A DNA stretch of 64,000 nucleotides from positions 1,831,001-1,895,000 of the forward strand of contig OY282373.1 of assembly GCA_958295805.1 (NCBI GenBank), in the 5' to 3' direction. Position 1 is the first letter of the stretch; each line of letters begins with the position of its first letter. The stretch comes from an uncultured Nitrospirales bacterium. Its GTDB lineage: Bacteria; Nitrospirota; Nitrospiria; Nitrospirales; UBA8639. Positions 5,485-13,209 of the stretch are shown here, piece by piece. The translations under genes were made by a program, and so were the position numbers. The notes below the pieces were generated by a model. The model searched no databases. It worked only from the letters and a program-made list of their open reading frames with translations, and was not told the origin of the DNA.

Positions 5485-7395
5485 CTAAAAACTGAAGATC
5501 AGACGGCCTTGGATACCGTAGTCCTTCCCGTCGCCTCGTCCGAGAGTCGCCTCTCCCGTGAGTTGAGCGGTCAGTTGGTCACTGGCGCCGAATTCGAGTC
5601 CCCCGCCGACCAAGACCGCGGTCTCGTCGTCGCCGGCGTCACCGGAGATGATCTGACCGGACCCGAGTGTGCCCGTGACCTTCTGTTCTTCAGCGAAATC
5701 CTTCTCTACGGTGACCCGCACGTTCGGCACGATCCAGACTTCACCGGATTCGAAACGGCTCGTCACTTGGCCGCCGACGTAGCCCACCACGCTGTCGATG
5801 GTCGTTTTGCGGACCGAGATTGCCATCGGCCCGGCGTCTTCCGTGTAGGGATCGATACGGGATTGAGATATACGCCCGCCGATCATCGGGCCGAACACGG
5901 TGTTTCCCACCTTGAAGTCATAGCCGCCGTTCAACAAGCCGAACCACGTATATCCGTCAACATCGGCCGACGCAGTGGGACGCGGCCAGAAGTAAGTTGG
6001 ACGTGAGAAATCGAAGTCGTCGGCGGAATAACCCAGTCCCACGTCTGCATAAGGCCCTCCACCCCCACTGCCGAAGGTCCCGTAGACCGTTGCGAAATAG
6101 CTTTCGAGGTCGGCGTCGCCGCGTCCACGGTCCAGCGACTGGTCAGCATTGGAATAGCCGACCGCGGCACCGGTCGCGACCAGTTGACTGAGTCGCCAGT
6201 CCATGCCCAGCATACCGGTCTTCACGGCGTAGTCAAAACCGCGACGAGTTGATTTGCTATCCCGGTCGCCGGAGCCGTAATCCCCCACGAGGTACAGCGT
6301 ATGATCCCCCATCTTTTCTTCCTGCGCTTCCCTGCCCATGGTGCGTCCAAAACGCATGGACAGCAGCCGCGACTGCACCAGACGCTGCTGCGAACGCAAC
6401 GAGAGGGTCGCAAGCATCGAACGTGAAGCCACGTCGGCGCCGGCGTCGGCCTTCATGTCCAGATACGCAGCCACGTATTCGGCGGTGATGCGATGAACGT
6501 GCGCGGTCGGGTGGATGTTATCGTAGAACAATCCGGAATTCGTTGCCTCAAGGGTTGAGCAATCACGGACCCCACCATCGAAATGGGGGCAGTAATCCTG
6601 CGTATTGGACAGCTTGTACAGCCCGGGGTTGTCCAACATGTCGTCGAACAGGTCGTCAAGAGCAACCAGCGTGATATCGACGCCAAGCCCGGTTTCAAGA
6701 CCATCGACCGTTTGCGCAAGCGCCGCATTGTGTGCCGCGGTCAACTCGCCGAACGCTTTACTCAGACCAAGGATTCGGCTCGCGGGCGTATAGCCCATGT
6801 TCGGCAGGTTGAGAACCACAAAATTCTTCTGACCGGCCCGCGCCAGCGTGCTGATGCCGGTTTTGATATTGCCGATGACCGTCGGCACCAGCGTTTGATG
6901 ATCGGTGCTACTCGCCCGGTTCTGATAATCGTTGCCTCCGATGAAGTAGACGGCCAGTGTGTTCGGACCGACTGCGCCGGCACTGACCGCCCGATCGACC
7001 TGATGAAGCGCATCCACCTTCAGCAAGTTGAATAACGCAGCCGCGCTCTGATGTGAGTTCATATCTCCCGACTCCGCGCCGCCAAAAGCAAAGTTTTCGA
7101 CGTTGGAATCGGGCACGCCACGCAAGCCGGGTAAGTGCTCCGCATACGTTGGACCGTTAGAATATCGGCCCTGGTAGTACGGGGGGCTGGGCGGCAGGAC
7201 CCACACCCCAGGATTTTGAGCGTTCAATGCTCTGGTAGCCTTATACAGTCTCTCTTTATCCGTCAGGCTGTCGCCAAAGAAAATGAGGCTGTTCTGCGCA
7301 ATGACCGGCTGACTTGCCAGCACGACCGCCAAGGCGGCGACGCCGGCACACGTCCAAACGACGCGACGTTCTTCCTTCGTGTTTGCAGATTGCAT
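5485..7395 (-). CDS. autotransporter with GDSL (SGNH) esterase passenger
   Basis: A 636-residue type Va secreted protein. ATG at 7395 is chosen because AGGAGGG sits eight bases upstream. Residues 1-34 form a signal peptide (hydrophobic VAALAVVLASQPVIA). The passenger is an SGNH hydrolase: FFGDSLTD supplies the nucleophile Ser block, FIGGNDY the Asn block, and YDNIHPT the Asp/His pair. The last 280 residues are a beta-barrel autotransporter domain with alternating Gly/aromatic strands, ending in Phe (GRLIFSF) as required for BAM recognition. Known relatives (EstA/EstP type) hydrolyse short-chain esters or lipids at the cell surface. It is divergent from the helicase gene. Confidence 0.92.
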   Translation of the reverse strand: MQSANTKEERRVVWTCAGVAALAVVLASQPVIAQNSLIFFGDSLTDKERLYKATRALNAQNPGVWVLPPSPPYYQGRYSNGPTYAEHLPGLRGVPDSNVENFAFGGAESGDMNSHQSAAALFNLLKVDALHQVDRAVSAGAVGPNTLAVYFIGGNDYQNRASSTDHQTLVPTVIGNIKTGISTLARAGQKNFVVLNLPNMGYTPASRILGLSKAFGELTAAHNAALAQTVDGLETGLGVDITLVALDDLFDDMLDNPGLYKLSNTQDYCPHFDGGVRDCSTLEATNSGLFYDNIHPTAHVHRITAEYVAAYLDMKADAGADVASRSMLATLSLRSQQRLVQSRLLSMRFGRTMGREAQEEKMGDHTLYLVGDYGSGDRDSKSTRRGFDYAVKTGMLGMDWRLSQLVATGAAVGYSNADQSLDRGRGDADLESYFATVYGTFGSGGGGPYADVGLGYSADDFDFSRPTYFWPRPTASADVDGYTWFGLLNGGYDFKVGNTVFGPMIGGRISQSRIDPYTEDAGPMAISVRKTTIDSVVGYVGGQVTSRFESGEVWIVPNVRVTVEKDFAEEQKVTGTLGSGQIISGDAGDDETAVLVGGGLEFGASDQLTAQLTGEATLGRGDGKDYGIQGRLIFSF

Positions 7396-7483
7396 GTTGC
7401 GCCCTCCTGATTGTGGCTTTTCAATTCGGTGAAAATATCTTACAGATTGCAGGAATGTCAAAGGCATTCACGTCTTGACGCCT

Positions 7484-7512
7484 TTGTGCTTTCAGTAAGA
7501 TATTGTTATACT
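7484..7512 (+). promoter_or_regulatory. putative promoter for split-helicase genes
   Basis: TTGTGC at 7484-7489 and TATACT at 7507-7512 are separated by 17 bases. The predicted start of transcription falls within a few bases of the ATG at 7523, and no Shine-Dalgarno sequence is visible before it. The mRNA may therefore be leaderless. The -35 match is weak. Confidence 0.3.
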
Positions 7513-7522
7513 TCTTTGCTTC

Positions 7523-9382
7523 ATGCCGCCTGCCATACATCCAGTCGATCTCGTTCACGTCCTGCGTCACCAACGTCTGACTCCGGCCATTATCTTTTTG
7601 ACCTCTCGACGCGCATGCGATGAGGCCATTGACAGCTTTGAACATCGCCACGTCCCGATTCCGGCCAAGCGGTCCGCGGCAATCACTCAGGTGATCCAAA
7701 CGGTCACGGCAAACTATCCCAGTATCACCAACCATCCCCTTATTCCCACGGTTCAACAATACGGCGTCGCCGCACATCACGCCGGTCACCTCCCGTCCTG
7801 GAAAATTGCCGTTGAAGAACTCATGCGCAAGGGCTGTCTCGATGCCGTCTTCGCCACGACCACCTTAGCCGCCGGCGTAGACTTTCCGGCACGCACCGTC
7901 GTCATTACCCAATCGAGTGTACGGAAGTCCCGAGACTTCACGGACTTGACCGTCAGCGAAATTCAACAGCTCGCGGGACGTGGGGGAAGACGGGGCAAAG
8001 ATCACGTGGGCTTTGTGGTAGTCACGCCGTCGCCGTATATCGACGTCCAGCACATTGCCAAGGGATTCACCGGCAACCCGGAACCCATCGACAGTCAGTT
8101 TGTCATCTCCTACGCCATGGTGTTGAACCTCTTGAAAGCCCATGCCATTGACCACATTCAACCTATCCTGGAAAAGAGCTTCGCACAGTTTCAACTCAAT
8201 CAACGCTCCGAAATCTTCGAAACCAGATTGGATACGGTGACCGTGCAGTTGGAGGACTACGGTCAGCGAGAATGCACCGATTGGATTACCCAATGGCAGG
8301 CCTTCGACCTTGCCAGAAAACGCCGTTCGCACCGTAGCGTCAAACTCCCCATGGAATCGCCTGAACTCTCGGCTACCCTGGCCTTCCTCACGCCCGGCCG
8401 CGTCGTCGAACTGTCCAAAGATCGAGCCGTGGTGTTGCGCCAATATCGCAGTCGCAGCCAAGCCCACTCCATGCTGACCGTCGTTCGAAGTCGTGGGCGC
8501 ATTATGGAATATCCCGCGGGCTCGGTCACCGCGGTCGTGGACCGAGTCATTGACGTAACGGAGACCCGCCATTTTCCCTGGTGTACGGCCCATAGCCTCG
8601 ATCACGCAATCGACACGTTGGACACGCTTCCCACCCGATTACGACGTCTGCCCATCCGCGTCGATCAGGATCTCATGGAAAACCCGATGCTGACCGACGT
8701 GCTCAGCGACGAGTTTCCCTGTCCCACCTGTCCGTCCCGTCAGGCCTGTCGAAAGGATCATTCTCAGGCTCTCAAGGTGAGTCAGGAACGTCATCGATTA
8801 ACCAAAAGCATTCATACCTTGCGCACGGAACTCTGGCACCGTTTCCAGCAACACGTGGAAGTGTTACAGAAGTTCGGCTATCTCACGCCCACGTGTCAGT
8901 TGACGTCCGACGGCGAATGGGCACGATTGATTCGCATCGATCATTCATTGCTGATTACTGAATTGATCAGGATGAGCGCGTTTGAAGGAATCGATCCTGC
9001 CTTATTGGCCGGCGTCTTGGCCAGCATCGCGCACGACGATGACCGGCCCGGATCGTTTCCGCGACGCAGTTCGGCACTGGCCTCCGTCCTCGGACAGGTT
9101 CGGAAGGTGGCGCAAGCGTTATCGGCCCATGAAGAACCTCCGTTGTTGCGGTCAGACATTGCCGCAGTGACGGAATTATGGATTGCCCAACCCACCCTGC
9201 CGTGGAACGACCTCATTCGTTCAACCACCATGGCAGAAGGGAACGTGTATCGACTCCTGGCCCGAACGTTGGAATATCTCTCGCAAATCCACGGATTACG
9301 AGCCACCCATCCAGGGCTGGCCAACGTGGCATACCACGCCATGGCCCTGATGCGACGTGACGTGCTGGAAGAATTACCATGA
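7523..9382 (+). CDS. Ski2/DExH-type helicase, C-terminal half (RecA2 onward)
   Basis: A 619-residue protein that begins directly at the second RecA domain of an SF2 helicase. PAIIFLTSRRACDEA (about 22-36) is the start of RecA2, GVAAHHAGHLP (81-91) and ATTTLAAGVDFPA (111-123) match motif V regions, and QQLAGRGGRRG (148-158) is motif VI with the arginine fingers. There is no Walker A motif in this ORF. Residues 400-416 hold a CPTCPSRQAC cysteine cluster. The missing RecA1 domain is encoded by the next ORF, 25 bases downstream, so the halves are in reversed order. An in-frame TAA at 7496-7498 excludes an upstream extension. The two products probably assemble into one RNA or DNA helicase. Confidence 0.85.
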   Translation: MPPAIHPVDLVHVLRHQRLTPAIIFLTSRRACDEAIDSFEHRHVPIPAKRSAAITQVIQTVTANYPSITNHPLIPTVQQYGVAAHHAGHLPSWKIAVEELMRKGCLDAVFATTTLAAGVDFPARTVVITQSSVRKSRDFTDLTVSEIQQLAGRGGRRGKDHVGFVVVTPSPYIDVQHIAKGFTGNPEPIDSQFVISYAMVLNLLKAHAIDHIQPILEKSFAQFQLNQRSEIFETRLDTVTVQLEDYGQRECTDWITQWQAFDLARKRRSHRSVKLPMESPELSATLAFLTPGRVVELSKDRAVVLRQYRSRSQAHSMLTVVRSRGRIMEYPAGSVTAVVDRVIDVTETRHFPWCTAHSLDHAIDTLDTLPTRLRRLPIRVDQDLMENPMLTDVLSDEFPCPTCPSRQACRKDHSQALKVSQERHRLTKSIHTLRTELWHRFQQHVEVLQKFGYLTPTCQLTSDGEWARLIRIDHSLLITELIRMSAFEGIDPALLAGVLASIAHDDDRPGSFPRRSSALASVLGQVRKVAQALSAHEEPPLLRSDIAAVTELWIAQPTLPWNDLIRSTTMAEGNVYRLLARTLEYLSQIHGLRATHPGLANVAYHAMALMRRDVLEELP

Positions 9383-9407
9383 GAGGGAGGGGTGAAAGTC
9401 ATTCACG

Positions 9408-10460
9408 ATGACGAATAATGAACTCGAACGACAACTCACCGACTTGCCGGGCAGACTCCTGCACAACTTGGCCAAGGGGCGCGTCTCTCGACATTTCCGA
9501 ATGGGAAAGGCCCGGCTCGTTCAGAGCCTTCTGAAACTTTCCCCTGATCAACGCACCGAAATCGGCATCGAGATGGCGACAATGTTGTCCGCGTCCGCTC
9601 GCCCCCAATCCACGCCCCAACCCGCAAAACCGCTGCCACCCGACCCGGCATCGCAAACGTCCCGGCATCGGCCTCGCCACGATTCAACCCAGGAACCGGC
9701 CGTCTCAAAAGACGCCCTCTTTGAGGGCATTGGCACCCCCTCACCAGCGCCGTTCACTCCCGATGAGTGGCAACAAGAAGCCATTGAACACCTGACGACG
9801 GGTGACGTGATCGTCAGCGTTCCCACGGGCAGCGGCAAAACCTACGTTGCCGTTGAAGCCATGCGACGAGCCATCAGCACCGACCAAACCGTGATCTACA
9901 CCTCCCCCTTGAAAGCCTTGTCCAACACCAAGTTGACCGAGTTCGCCCATATGTTCGGCTCGGAAAACGTCGGCATTCTCACCGGCGACCGTCGAGACAA
10001 TGCACACGCGCCCATTCTGATTATGACCACCGAGATCCTGCGTAACTTACTCTATGACGCGGCGAGCGGCGAGATTGACATGCGGTTGGATACGTTAGGC
10101 CTGGTGATTCTAGATGAATCGCAATTTCTCGCTGACCCGGAACGCGGGGTAGTCTGGGAAGAAACGATTATTTTTTGTCCTGCTCAATCGCGACTCCTCT
10201 TGCTCTCAGCCTCCATCGGCAACCCCGACGAAGTCGCAGCCTGGATCAACTTGATTCGTTCGACTCCCTGCCGTCTGGTCCACCATCGCAATCGGTCAGT
10301 TCCCCTGCGCGCAGCCTATCTTGATCCTTCAGGAACACTTGTTCCCTTCTTCCGCACCCGCGACATTGCCCAAGGCAAAGCCTTTACCCTGCACCCGGAC
10401 GCCAAACGTCTTTTCGCCCGCTACGAAGACCAGACCCTCGGCACACGCTCTAAAAGGTGA
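9408..10460 (+). CDS. Ski2/DExH-type helicase, N-terminal half (RecA1)
   Basis: A 350-residue protein. The first 60 residues are helical (MTNNELERQLTDLPGRL), then comes a Pro/Gln-rich linker, then RecA1: FTPDEWQQEAI (Q-motif-like), SVPTGSGKT at about 137-145 (Walker A), TSPLKALSNTK (motif Ia), MTTEILRN (Ib), VILDESQFLADPERG at 233-247 (motif II) and LLSASIGNP (motif III). Motif II reads DESQ where Ski2-like relatives usually have DEVH or DEAH. The protein ends shortly after motif III, exactly where RecA2 should follow; that domain is encoded by the upstream ORF. GAGGGAGGGG upstream is a strong purine-rich ribosome site. Frame integrity suggests a working split helicase. Confidence 0.85.
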   Translation: MTNNELERQLTDLPGRLLHNLAKGRVSRHFRMGKARLVQSLLKLSPDQRTEIGIEMATMLSASARPQSTPQPAKPLPPDPASQTSRHRPRHDSTQEPAVSKDALFEGIGTPSPAPFTPDEWQQEAIEHLTTGDVIVSVPTGSGKTYVAVEAMRRAISTDQTVIYTSPLKALSNTKLTEFAHMFGSENVGILTGDRRDNAHAPILIMTTEILRNLLYDAASGEIDMRLDTLGLVILDESQFLADPERGVVWEETIIFCPAQSRLLLLSASIGNPDEVAAWINLIRSTPCRLVHHRNRSVPLRAAYLDPSGTLVPFFRTRDIAQGKAFTLHPDAKRLFARYEDQTLGTRSKR

Positions 10461-10482: not shown

Positions 10483-10851
10483 TTAGAGTAATCGCCTGGA
10501 ACGAAGGGATTTTTCGACTTCCGGATCTTGATCCGGTTGGCAGATGCGGCATTGGCACATTTGACGAAGCCTGGTAAAGCTATACAGTCCGGTATCGTGG
10601 CCGTCGCTCCAGACCAGGCGTAAGGCGTAATGCCCGACCGGTTCGACGTCCTTCAGCATGATGAACATCGGCACGTCATCGGATTTCACTTTTCGCTCTC
10701 CGGTCCATTCATCCGTACAGGCCGCACAGGGGCACTGTAAACGCAGCGAACGAATCGGATAGACGCCGTGATGATCATCGCTCCAATCGATGCCGAACAC
10801 GCCCTTGTCGAGCCACTTCATATCCGTGGGTTGAATGGCGTCCGTACTCAT
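10483..10851 (-). CDS. DUF971 (GBBH-like N-terminal domain) protein
   Basis: A 122-residue protein of the DUF971 family. It contains the family core with WSDDHHGVYPIRSLR, CPCAACTDEW, and GHYALRLVWSDGHDTGLYSF followed by LRQMCQC. The domain occurs alone in bacteria and fused to gamma-butyrobetaine hydroxylases in eukaryotes; solitary members are associated with Fe-S or redox proteins, but their exact role is not established. The start overlaps the recO stop by four bases (ATGA), so the two are translationally coupled. The Cys pairs near both ends (CPCAAC, CQCRIC) could bind metal. Confidence 0.85.
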   Translation of the reverse strand: MSTDAIQPTDMKWLDKGVFGIDWSDDHHGVYPIRSLRLQCPCAACTDEWTGERKVKSDDVPMFIMLKDVEPVGHYALRLVWSDGHDTGLYSFTRLRQMCQCRICQPDQDPEVEKSLRSRRLL

Positions 10852-11651
10852 TTCATTTCGCTCGCGGCGCGTTGACTGACCATTCCATATTCGGACGATA
10901 CAGGTTCGGCCGCCAAAAAGTTTTTCGCCGGCAGCCGTTTGCCGACCACGGTTCGGGCGTAGGTATCGATCACGTCTTCCAACTCACTCCTGACTTGGCC
11001 CGTGGCCTTCAGCCGCCTTGCCATGGTAAAGGACATCCGACGTGCCTGTTTGAGGAACGCAATGCCGCCCGGGGAAATCGGCAAACAATCGTCCCGACTC
11101 TTTTGCTCACAAGACCTACAGATCAGCCCGCCGGCCCACGGGGAAAACTTGGGTGCGGTTAAGCCAACGTTCCGACCACAACCTGCACAGTGATCAAGCT
11201 GCGGTCGAAACCCTGCTTGTCCCAACGCCTGAATCTGAAAGACAACCGTGAGTAATTCAGGATCATCCGTCTGACCCAACGACCGCAACCCATCCAGCAG
11301 CCCATGAAAAATCGAGGGGCTGGGATCACGATCCGCGGTCACCCCATCGACTAACGCCACCATGCAAGAAGCGGCTGCAATGCGTTCAATGTTGCCTCGT
11401 AAGAAGGCAAATGGTTCGCTGATATCGACCTGACTCACCGAAGCGAGGCTGTCGTGTCGTTTATCAAAGAGCGTGAGATTGACGGATGAAAACAGCTCAA
11501 GCGTTCCACCAAACCGGCTTTTCATCCTGCGTGCGCCTCGTGCGATCCCCCGTATCTTGCCAAGTCGAAGGGTGAAAAACGTCACGATGCGATCGGCTTC
11601 TCCCCATCGCATACTTTTGAGCACGATCGCGTCCGTGGTCACAAGAGCCAT
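10848..11651 (-). CDS. recO: DNA repair protein RecO
   Basis: Recombination mediator that works with RecR (RecFOR pathway) to load RecA on SSB-coated single strands. The 267-residue protein begins MALVTTDAIVLKSMRWGEAD, a typical RecO OB-fold start. It has a CAGC near residue 160 and a CRSC pair (LDHCAGCGRNVG, GGLICRSCEQ), giving the four-cysteine zinc finger found in many RecO proteins. The open frame extends 76 codons upstream, but that part is antisense to mgtE and lacks protein character, so the ATG at 11651 is used. It overlaps the DUF971 gene by four bases. Confidence 0.93.
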   Translation of the reverse strand: MALVTTDAIVLKSMRWGEADRIVTFFTLRLGKIRGIARGARRMKSRFGGTLELFSSVNLTLFDKRHDSLASVSQVDISEPFAFLRGNIERIAAASCMVALVDGVTADRDPSPSIFHGLLDGLRSLGQTDDPELLTVVFQIQALGQAGFRPQLDHCAGCGRNVGLTAPKFSPWAGGLICRSCEQKSRDDCLPISPGGIAFLKQARRMSFTMARRLKATGQVRSELEDVIDTYARTVVGKRLPAKNFLAAEPVSSEYGMVSQRAASEMK

Positions 11652-11772
11652 ACGACGATCACCAGAACGTTGAACGGACCTGCCTCTCTTTCTCTCCTTG
11701 CCTCCCCTGACAAAGGGAACAGAACGGCGTAACGCTCTGAGCGAAGAGAAGAGTCCCGCGCAGGGAACGTGC

Positions 11773-13209
11773 CTATTGCAAAAACTCCAGCATCGCGGTG
11801 GAGAATCCGAGGTAGATGCTGACACCGGTGATGTCCATGGCCGTGGTGATAAACGGTCCGGCTGCCACGGCCGGGTCAACGTGAAATTTCTTCAACAGCA
11901 ACGGCGTCACTGTAGCCAGACTCGCCGAAATGACAAACGTCAGCAGCAATGCGCCACCGACCACCAATCCCAGATACCCGCTTCCCTGCCACAACCATCC
12001 GGCGAAAAAGAGCAACGTCCCACAGACCAGCCCCAAGAGTGATCCAATGCGCAATTCTCGAAACACGACTTTCCAAACGTCACTCGGCTCGACGCGACCG
12101 GTGGCAAGCCCGCGAATGATCAGCGTGGATGATTGTAATCCTAAATTTCCTCCCATCGCCGCGATCACGGGGATAAAGGTCACAATGGCCACAACCTCTT
12201 GAATCGTAAACCGGAACCACCACAGAATGAATCCCGACACCAGACTGCCAACCAGATTGGTAAACAACCATGGAAAGCGCAGACCCGCGGCCTGAAGGCT
12301 GCTCGTGTGCATCTGAGCGTCTTCTTCAGCCGCCCCCGCCATCTTTAACATGTCCTTCGTGTCTTCATCTCGAATGACGTCCACCACGTCGTCCACGGTA
12401 ATAATCCCGACCAGCCGATGATCCCCATCAACGACGGGAATGGCCAGGAGATTGTAATTCGCAACCTGGTGCGCGACTTCCTTCTGGTCGGTATCCACCG
12501 TCACGCTGATCACCTCGCGGGCGAGGATACTGTTGAGGGGCGCCGTCGGCGCGACGACCAATAATTCACGCAACGACACGACGCCGGTGAGCCGACCGTC
12601 GCGGTCCGTCGGATAAATATAAAAGACGGTCTCGGCCTTCGTCGCCTGTTGCAGAAGCTGAATGGCTTCTCGAGCGCTGGTTTCCTCAGGCAGAGAAAAG
12701 AATTCCGTGGTCATGATGCTCCCGGCCGTTCCCTTGGGGTAGGCCATGAGATTGGCAACCTCCTGGGAGTCCTCGGCCTTCATGAGCGGCAAAATATTCT
12801 GCGCCGTCTCCTCAGGCAGCACGCCTAAAATATAGGCGGCATCGTCCGCCGGCACGGTTCGCAACATCCAGGCCAGATCATCGGCGTTGCGATCTTCGAG
12901 GATTTCCAGAATCATCTCGTTACTCAACTCGCTGACCACCTGCCCTTGCTCCGCCACGTCTTCGATCAGCTCAAACACCGTCCGTCGGTCCTGTGGAGTG
13001 TCCAAGTGCATAATCACGCGCGCAAGGTCGGCCGGATGCAACCGGGCAATCAAATTCATGACGTTCGAAATGGCCCCGCGCTTCAAGAGTCGACGCACTG
13101 AGAGTCGCACCAGGTCAAACTTGCTCCGCGTATACGTGGACGTGGACGTCGGTTCATCCTTGGGAGGCTCAGAGACGTCCGGGGAAATGACTTTGGCTGG
13201 TTCCATCAT
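11773..13209 (-). CDS. mgtE: magnesium transporter MgtE
   Basis: Inner-membrane Mg2+ channel with the standard three-part layout: an N-terminal helical superfamily domain (about 40-140, HPADLARVIMHLD, ending VLPEETAQNILPLM), a pair of CBS domains (about 150-270) that sense cytosolic Mg2+ and close the pore, and five C-terminal membrane helices with PVIAAMGGNLGLQSSTLIIRG lining the pore. It lies seven bases after the era stop codon and on the same strand, so it is probably in the same transcript. Two adjacent ATG codons (13209 and 13206) are possible starts. Length, 478 residues, is normal. Confidence 0.95.
   Translation of the reverse strand: MMEPAKVISPDVSEPPKDEPTSTSTYTRSKFDLVRLSVRRLLKRGAISNVMNLIARLHPADLARVIMHLDTPQDRRTVFELIEDVAEQGQVVSELSNEMILEILEDRNADDLAWMLRTVPADDAAYILGVLPEETAQNILPLMKAEDSQEVANLMAYPKGTAGSIMTTEFFSLPEETSAREAIQLLQQATKAETVFYIYPTDRDGRLTGVVSLRELLVVAPTAPLNSILAREVISVTVDTDQKEVAHQVANYNLLAIPVVDGDHRLVGIITVDDVVDVIRDEDTKDMLKMAGAAEEDAQMHTSSLQAAGLRFPWLFTNLVGSLVSGFILWWFRFTIQEVVAIVTFIPVIAAMGGNLGLQSSTLIIRGLATGRVEPSDVWKVVFRELRIGSLLGLVCGTLLFFAGWLWQGSGYLGLVVGGALLLTFVISASLATVTPLLLKKFHVDPAVAAGPFITTAMDITGVSIYLGFSTAMLEFLQ

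Follow-up and report, generated by a model that had tools for sequence, protein, structure and literature searches.

A helicase of the Ski2-like type was found to be divided over two genes in the window, the 64,000-nucleotide stretch of DNA that was analysed, with the gene for the RecA2 half (ORF1) placed ahead of the gene for the RecA1 half (ORF2). The Pfam domains and the structural alignment with Mtr4 agree on this arrangement in two pieces of swapped order, which a sequence-only reading of the same DNA had proposed. We hold with high confidence that ORF1 and ORF2 constitute an obligate two-subunit Mtr4/Ski2-type SF2 helicase, for which both complex formation and activity are inferred, and the two pieces very probably join into one working enzyme. 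Split helicase genes and permuted proteins were known beforehand; what is added here is a Ski2/Mtr4-type helicase that is split and has its order swapped. A literature search of open papers returned no account of a Ski2/Mtr4-type helicase that is both split and swapped in order, nor of helicase gene fission in Nitrospira.

ORF1 (7523-9382; this and all further features of the pair lie on the + strand) encodes 619 aa comprising RecA2, a winged-helix/ratchet part, an arch with a beta-barrel and a DSHCT domain, and the Walker A motif is absent. Its Pfam matches are Helicase_C (E 1.9e-6) and DSHCT (PF08148, 8897-9367, residues 459-615, E 4e-22, 79.3 bits against a cut-off of 22.7). Motif V was read from the sequence as FATTTLAAGVDFPAR (7850-7894); it takes the form FATTTLAAGVDFPA in 58 of 58 split copies and FATETLAAGINMPA in most fused relatives. 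Motif VI, QLAGRGGR (7967-7990), was located by sequence and alignment, and both of its arginines are invariant in split and fused copies alike. AlphaFold2 predicts the strands of a beta-barrel at the KOW/SH3-like arch position (8399-8548, residues 293-342, pLDDT about 90). A conserved cysteine cluster, CPTCPSRQAC (8720-8749), looks like a putative metal-binding site: the pattern C-x2-C-x4/5-C is present in all 58 split ORF1s, 48 of which have it in an FPCP context. Among fused relatives a comparable C-x2-C-...-H motif was observed in 22 and a form ending in ...-C in two, the histidine variants occurring in cyanobacterial/Melainabacterial and HelY-like relatives. Upstream of the ORF1 ATG the reading frame is open for just 8 codons and therefore no in-frame RecA1 can precede ORF1, as had been argued from the sequence.

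ORF2 (9408-10460, 350 aa) consists of an N-terminal helical extension, RecA1 and a linker tail; its Pfam match is DEAD (E 1.2e-22) and it contains no RecA2 domain. Walker A, or motif I, reads PTGSGKT (9822-9842), and residues P139, T140, G141, G143, K144 and T145 were found to be invariant in the ORF2 alignment. Motif II is DESQ (10113-10124), exactly as first reported, and this form recurs in 53 of 53 split copies of families f1-f3 with DEAQ in f4, whereas fused relatives have DECH, DEVH or DEIH in 80 of 80 cases (the best 80 of 593 loci). Motif III is SAS by sequence comparison (10206-10214) in the split copies as against SAT in 79 of the 80 fused relatives. Every split copy that was read has glutamine in place of the motif II histidine, so coupling to the nucleotide may be altered or lost. 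RecA1 and RecA2 with motifs I-VI are thus all present but spread over two proteins, and the earlier description of ORF1 as carrying RecA2 motifs without Walker A, and of ORF2 as carrying Walker A without RecA2, holds in both Pfam and sequence.

The N-terminal extension of ORF2 forms four helices (9414-9599, residues 3-64, pLDDT 95-98) that are also delimited by the alignment, and it carries the conserved pattern LHxLAxGRxxRHFRxGKxRLI. It is missing from the fused relatives and from family f4, and searches against Pfam, PDB sequences and the fused relatives gave zero matches. Fold searches with the ORF2 model returned lists filled by RecA1 matches and so scarcely probed this domain. At the other end of the protein, the C-terminal tail (10308-10457) corresponds in the junction alignment to the RecA1-RecA2 linker region and stops at the point where ORF1 starts in a normal helicase.

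Single-chain AlphaFold2 models (mean pLDDT 88.8 for ORF1 and 88.4 for ORF2) were observed to match consecutive parts of yeast Mtr4. Residues 115-342 of the ORF2 model correspond to Mtr4 147-363 (Z 25.3, 40% identity) and residues 1-619 of the ORF1 model to Mtr4 356-1070 (Z 29.4, 598 residues aligned), so that the predicted structures of ORF2 and ORF1, in that order, rebuild Mtr4 from the RecA1 start to the C-terminus almost free of gaps and overlaps. This tiling places the break in the interdomain linker, where it had been expected, with hardly any conserved core lost or repeated; the alignment with single-gene relatives likewise puts it in the variable RecA1-RecA2 linker. Matches of ORF1 to MTR4/Mtr4 cover 594-598 residues (Z 29-31) with an overall rmsd of about 18 A, but the well-fitting cores superpose at 2.5-3.1 A over 403-431 residues, and the large overall value suggests that the arch of the model is oriented differently from that of MTR4/Mtr4. 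The top matches of both ORFs in PDB sequence searches were Mtr4, Ski2 and FRH.

Unsplit homologues, which had been anticipated at about 950 residues, were found with open frames of 670-980 aa. When 84,980 bacterial and archaeal genomes were scanned with a query alignment led by a normal-order relative of the same class (G225), 593 loci were confirmed, and the best 80 of them were kept. Each of these 80 is one open frame with RecA1 followed by RecA2, and two of them (L131 and L143) have a frame that is interrupted or shortened after RecA2. They derive mainly from Cyanobacteria/Melainabacteria, Methylomirabilota/Rokubacteria and Actinomycetota, with a few from Planctomycetota and one from a Thermoplasmata archaeon. 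Given that the best 80 of 593 loci were read, a further swapped split elsewhere, outside the phylum, is possible. Split copies form one clade with support 100 in each of the ORF1 and ORF2 trees, on a long stem of length 2.48 and 2.32 in the two half-trees.

The split gene is distributed throughout the order. Two draws of genomes were used, one of 60 relatives and one of about 200 genomes of the phylum, 56 of which belong to the order. A protein search detected ORF1 in 57 of the 60 relatives, including 48 of 48 near-complete genomes, and in all but one of the 56 same-order genomes of the second draw; no split ORF1 was found outside the order among the roughly 200 phylum genomes drawn. When both draws are combined, ORF1 with the identical start residue occurs in 91 of 95 different genomes of the order. 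Of the four genomes in which it is missing, three are of limited completeness (71-84%), and the remaining one, G151 (99% complete), has lost both halves. The match covers residues 1-619 of the query in almost every intact genome, which fixes the ORF1 start at the RecA2 boundary, and at least 50 genomes have ORF2 immediately 3' of ORF1 in the same orientation. The shared start in 91 of 95 genomes together with the adjoining ORF2 excludes chance or an assembly error. Among the genomes searched within the order no fused copy was found, since ORF1 frames reach 730 aa at most, which is too short for one. The window's own genome is one 2.90 Mb contig with a single copy of each half, and it contains no second DSHCT gene or other full-length match elsewhere. 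The Nitrospira 16S probe site Ntspa662 occurs in G044, G059 and G008, and a look for 16S in the window's genome gave no hit, so the order is putatively Nitrospirales.

The claim that the halves are adjacent stands for the genomes counted above but not for all. In family f4 they are on separate contigs with differing neighbours in G039 and G045 and about 13.6 kb apart in G042, and in G012, a member of the same genus, they are separated by 7.2 kb. These halves must act in trans, and such departures from adjacency add weight to the two-subunit interpretation. The 7.2 kb between the halves of G012 (L077/L167, G012:C15 at about 20.2-27.3 kb) hold ORFs of 1258 and 635 aa with a PSQAK repeat. Co-occurrence in the 60 relatives gave 55 with both halves, three with neither and two with ORF1 alone (G027 and G047), where ORF1 sits at a contig end; allowing for contig ends, the two are always jointly present or jointly missing. 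Both ORFs are under purifying selection, with dN/dS of 0.03-0.17, and this selection on both halves in spite of varied neighbours and unlinking is to be expected of an obligate two-subunit enzyme. As in a split gene assembled in trans, complementary halves of one ancestral gene are both kept and can be unlinked. The gap between ORF1 and ORF2 ranges from -4 to +195 bases with varying relative frames, and four-base ATGA/GTGA stop-start overlaps were observed in L013 (f1), L047 (f3) and L072, L073 and L080 (f2). Their occurrence in three families suggests that the two genes would be expressed in matched amounts.

The swapped order itself was attributed by the sequence-only reading to a tandem duplication, and this origin is plausible. 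We rate at about even the chance that the whole gene was duplicated in tandem, after which copy one lost its 5' half and copy two its 3' half. Such a course yields precisely the observed order and complementarity, it follows an established path to permutation (PMC3320104), and the adjacent overlapping genes of three families suggest that the swapped order is ancestral there. The order and the complementarity of the halves thus fit the proposal, but neither lost half leaves a remnant beside the pair, no intermediate was seen in any of the genomes examined, and the ORF2 N-terminal extension has no counterpart in fused relatives; fission with relocation would give the same outcome equally well. 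A normal-order fission, or a dispersal of the halves, that came first and was followed by rejoining in reverse order is a real though tentative possibility. It is favoured by the unlinked halves of f4, whose ORF2 has no N-terminal extension and which sits at the base of the ORF2 tree without a resolved position. However, the ORF1 tree groups f4 inside with f2 (support 99), so that the unlinking in f4 is probably secondary. The overlaps in members of f1, f2 and f3 suggest that the f1-f3 ancestor already had the swapped and coupled order. The duplication route concerns origin and is compatible with the two-subunit helicase explanation.

SF2 helicases are driven by the opening and closing of a pair of RecA domains, which are as a rule held together by a tether within a single chain. 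In the proposed mechanism, an ancestral single gene would have been cut in the RecA1-RecA2 linker, and its halves would now lie reversed within one transcription unit. ORF2 would contribute the Walker A lysine and motif II and ORF1 would contribute motif V and the motif VI arginines, so that the ATP site would be completed only when ORF1 docks with ORF2; the strand would then be guided by the winged-helix/ratchet, arch and DSHCT parts of ORF1. The catalytic residues were found to be invariant in the alignments of both ORFs. RNA is the likeliest substrate, and unwinding in RNA processing or decay the likeliest role, because the non-RecA parts match those of the RNA-guiding Mtr4/Ski2 enzymes. 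An extended form of this mechanism seems rather unlikely, namely that RecA1 is dissociable, that docking through the lineage-specific N-terminal domain of ORF2 switches on or recruits the helicase, and that motifs II, III and V changed jointly as the ATP cycle was re-tuned for a motor in two pieces.

It is improbable that the two proteins have separate roles, with ORF2 as a stand-alone RecA1 ATPase or RNA-binding factor and ORF1 as an RNA-binding adaptor for another ATPase. The existence of two distinct genes that are unlinked in one family, and the acquisition by ORF2 of a domain of its own, are consistent with such roles; however, ORF1 keeps invariant those residues of motifs V and VI that serve only the ATP site, ORF2 does the same for motifs I-III, the halves are present or absent jointly, and the cut has the precision of the linker. 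Overlapping or very short junctions in some genomes might point to a single permuted polypeptide made through frameshift or stop bypass, but the variable gaps and frames and the unlinked f4 genes make this very improbable. An assembly inversion, the alternative raised at the outset by the sequence-only reading, or a decaying pseudogene has a negligible probability, since the identical order in at least 50 genomes, some on one contig, rules out the former and the dN/dS values with full-length open frames throughout rule out the latter.

The proposed two-subunit helicase shares with the eukaryotic exosome RNA helicases Mtr4 and Ski2 the order RecA1-RecA2-winged helix/ratchet-arch-DSHCT, which ORF2 plus ORF1 cover almost fully; the C-terminal DSHCT domain is present, and the ORF1 model contains the winged-helix/ratchet and an arch of stalk and beta-barrel. 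It differs from them in being two polypeptides encoded by swapped genes, RecA2 first in place of a single RecA1-first chain, in having DESQ (DEAQ in f4) for the DExH of motif II, and in the additional N-terminal helical domain on RecA1. The nearest sequence relatives, among the best 80 of 593 loci, are bacterial DSHCT helicases, namely a cyanobacterial single-gene protein and the actinobacterial HelY-like proteins. ORF1 aligns to residues 258-892 of cyanobacterial proteins and ORF2 to about 17-230, but these helicases are single normal-order ORFs with DECH, DEVH or DEIH. We take the cyanobacterial protein to be probable kin of chloroplast ISE2, and one alignment member matched Pfam SH3_ISE2. 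Assignment to the Hel308/Hjm DNA helicases was rejected, the scores of 60.9 and 56.0 bits lying far below the equivalog cut-off of 1200. For the anti-phage helicase Hachiman HamB, the profile gave 45-46 bits, and the part that matched was the generic helicase core.

Two-gene helicase-containing proteins have been described in Nanoarchaeota, where the large helicase-related protein Lhr and reverse gyrase are assumed to assemble post-translationally (PMC3655853). Those belong to other helicase families and to the very small genomes of parasites in which many genes are split, whereas here one gene is split across a bacterial order with genomes of about 1.7-4.8 Mb. Circular permutants, which are known reordered proteins (PMC3320104), likewise have their parts in a changed order, but in the present case the reordered parts remain separate polypeptides. 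A natural enzyme that has no RecA tether across an order, and whose halves are unlinked in some genomes, offers a direct test of the purpose of the linker and supplies a blueprint from nature for an RNA helicase that can be switched or reconstituted. In addition, ORF1 and ORF2 annotated singly would each be mistaken for a truncated helicase.

An extended -10-like box, TGTTATACT, was noticed in the window at 7504-7523, ending just 10 bases 5' of the ORF1 ATG, and the majority of the f1 relatives and some of those in f2 have similar boxes (TGTTACACT, TGCTACAAT and TGATACAAT) at equal spacing. This spacing and its repetition in relatives suggest that the ORF1 mRNA may be leaderless. The genes 5' of ORF1 vary by family, with a zinc-ribbon gene in f2. 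In the window a divergent GDSL lipase/esterase fused to an autotransporter beta-domain (5485-7467) starts 55 bases from ORF1. Both f3 genomes that were inspected have a glgC-ORF1-ORF2 unit, in which a gene resembling that for glucose-1-phosphate adenylyltransferase (glgC; L082:3857-5236 and L083:2762-4000) has its 3' end overlapped by ORF1. On the other side of the pair, a RecO gene (10848-11879) converges on ORF1-ORF2 in the window, and RecO was also found close 3' of the pair in G010 (L081) and G020 (L172).
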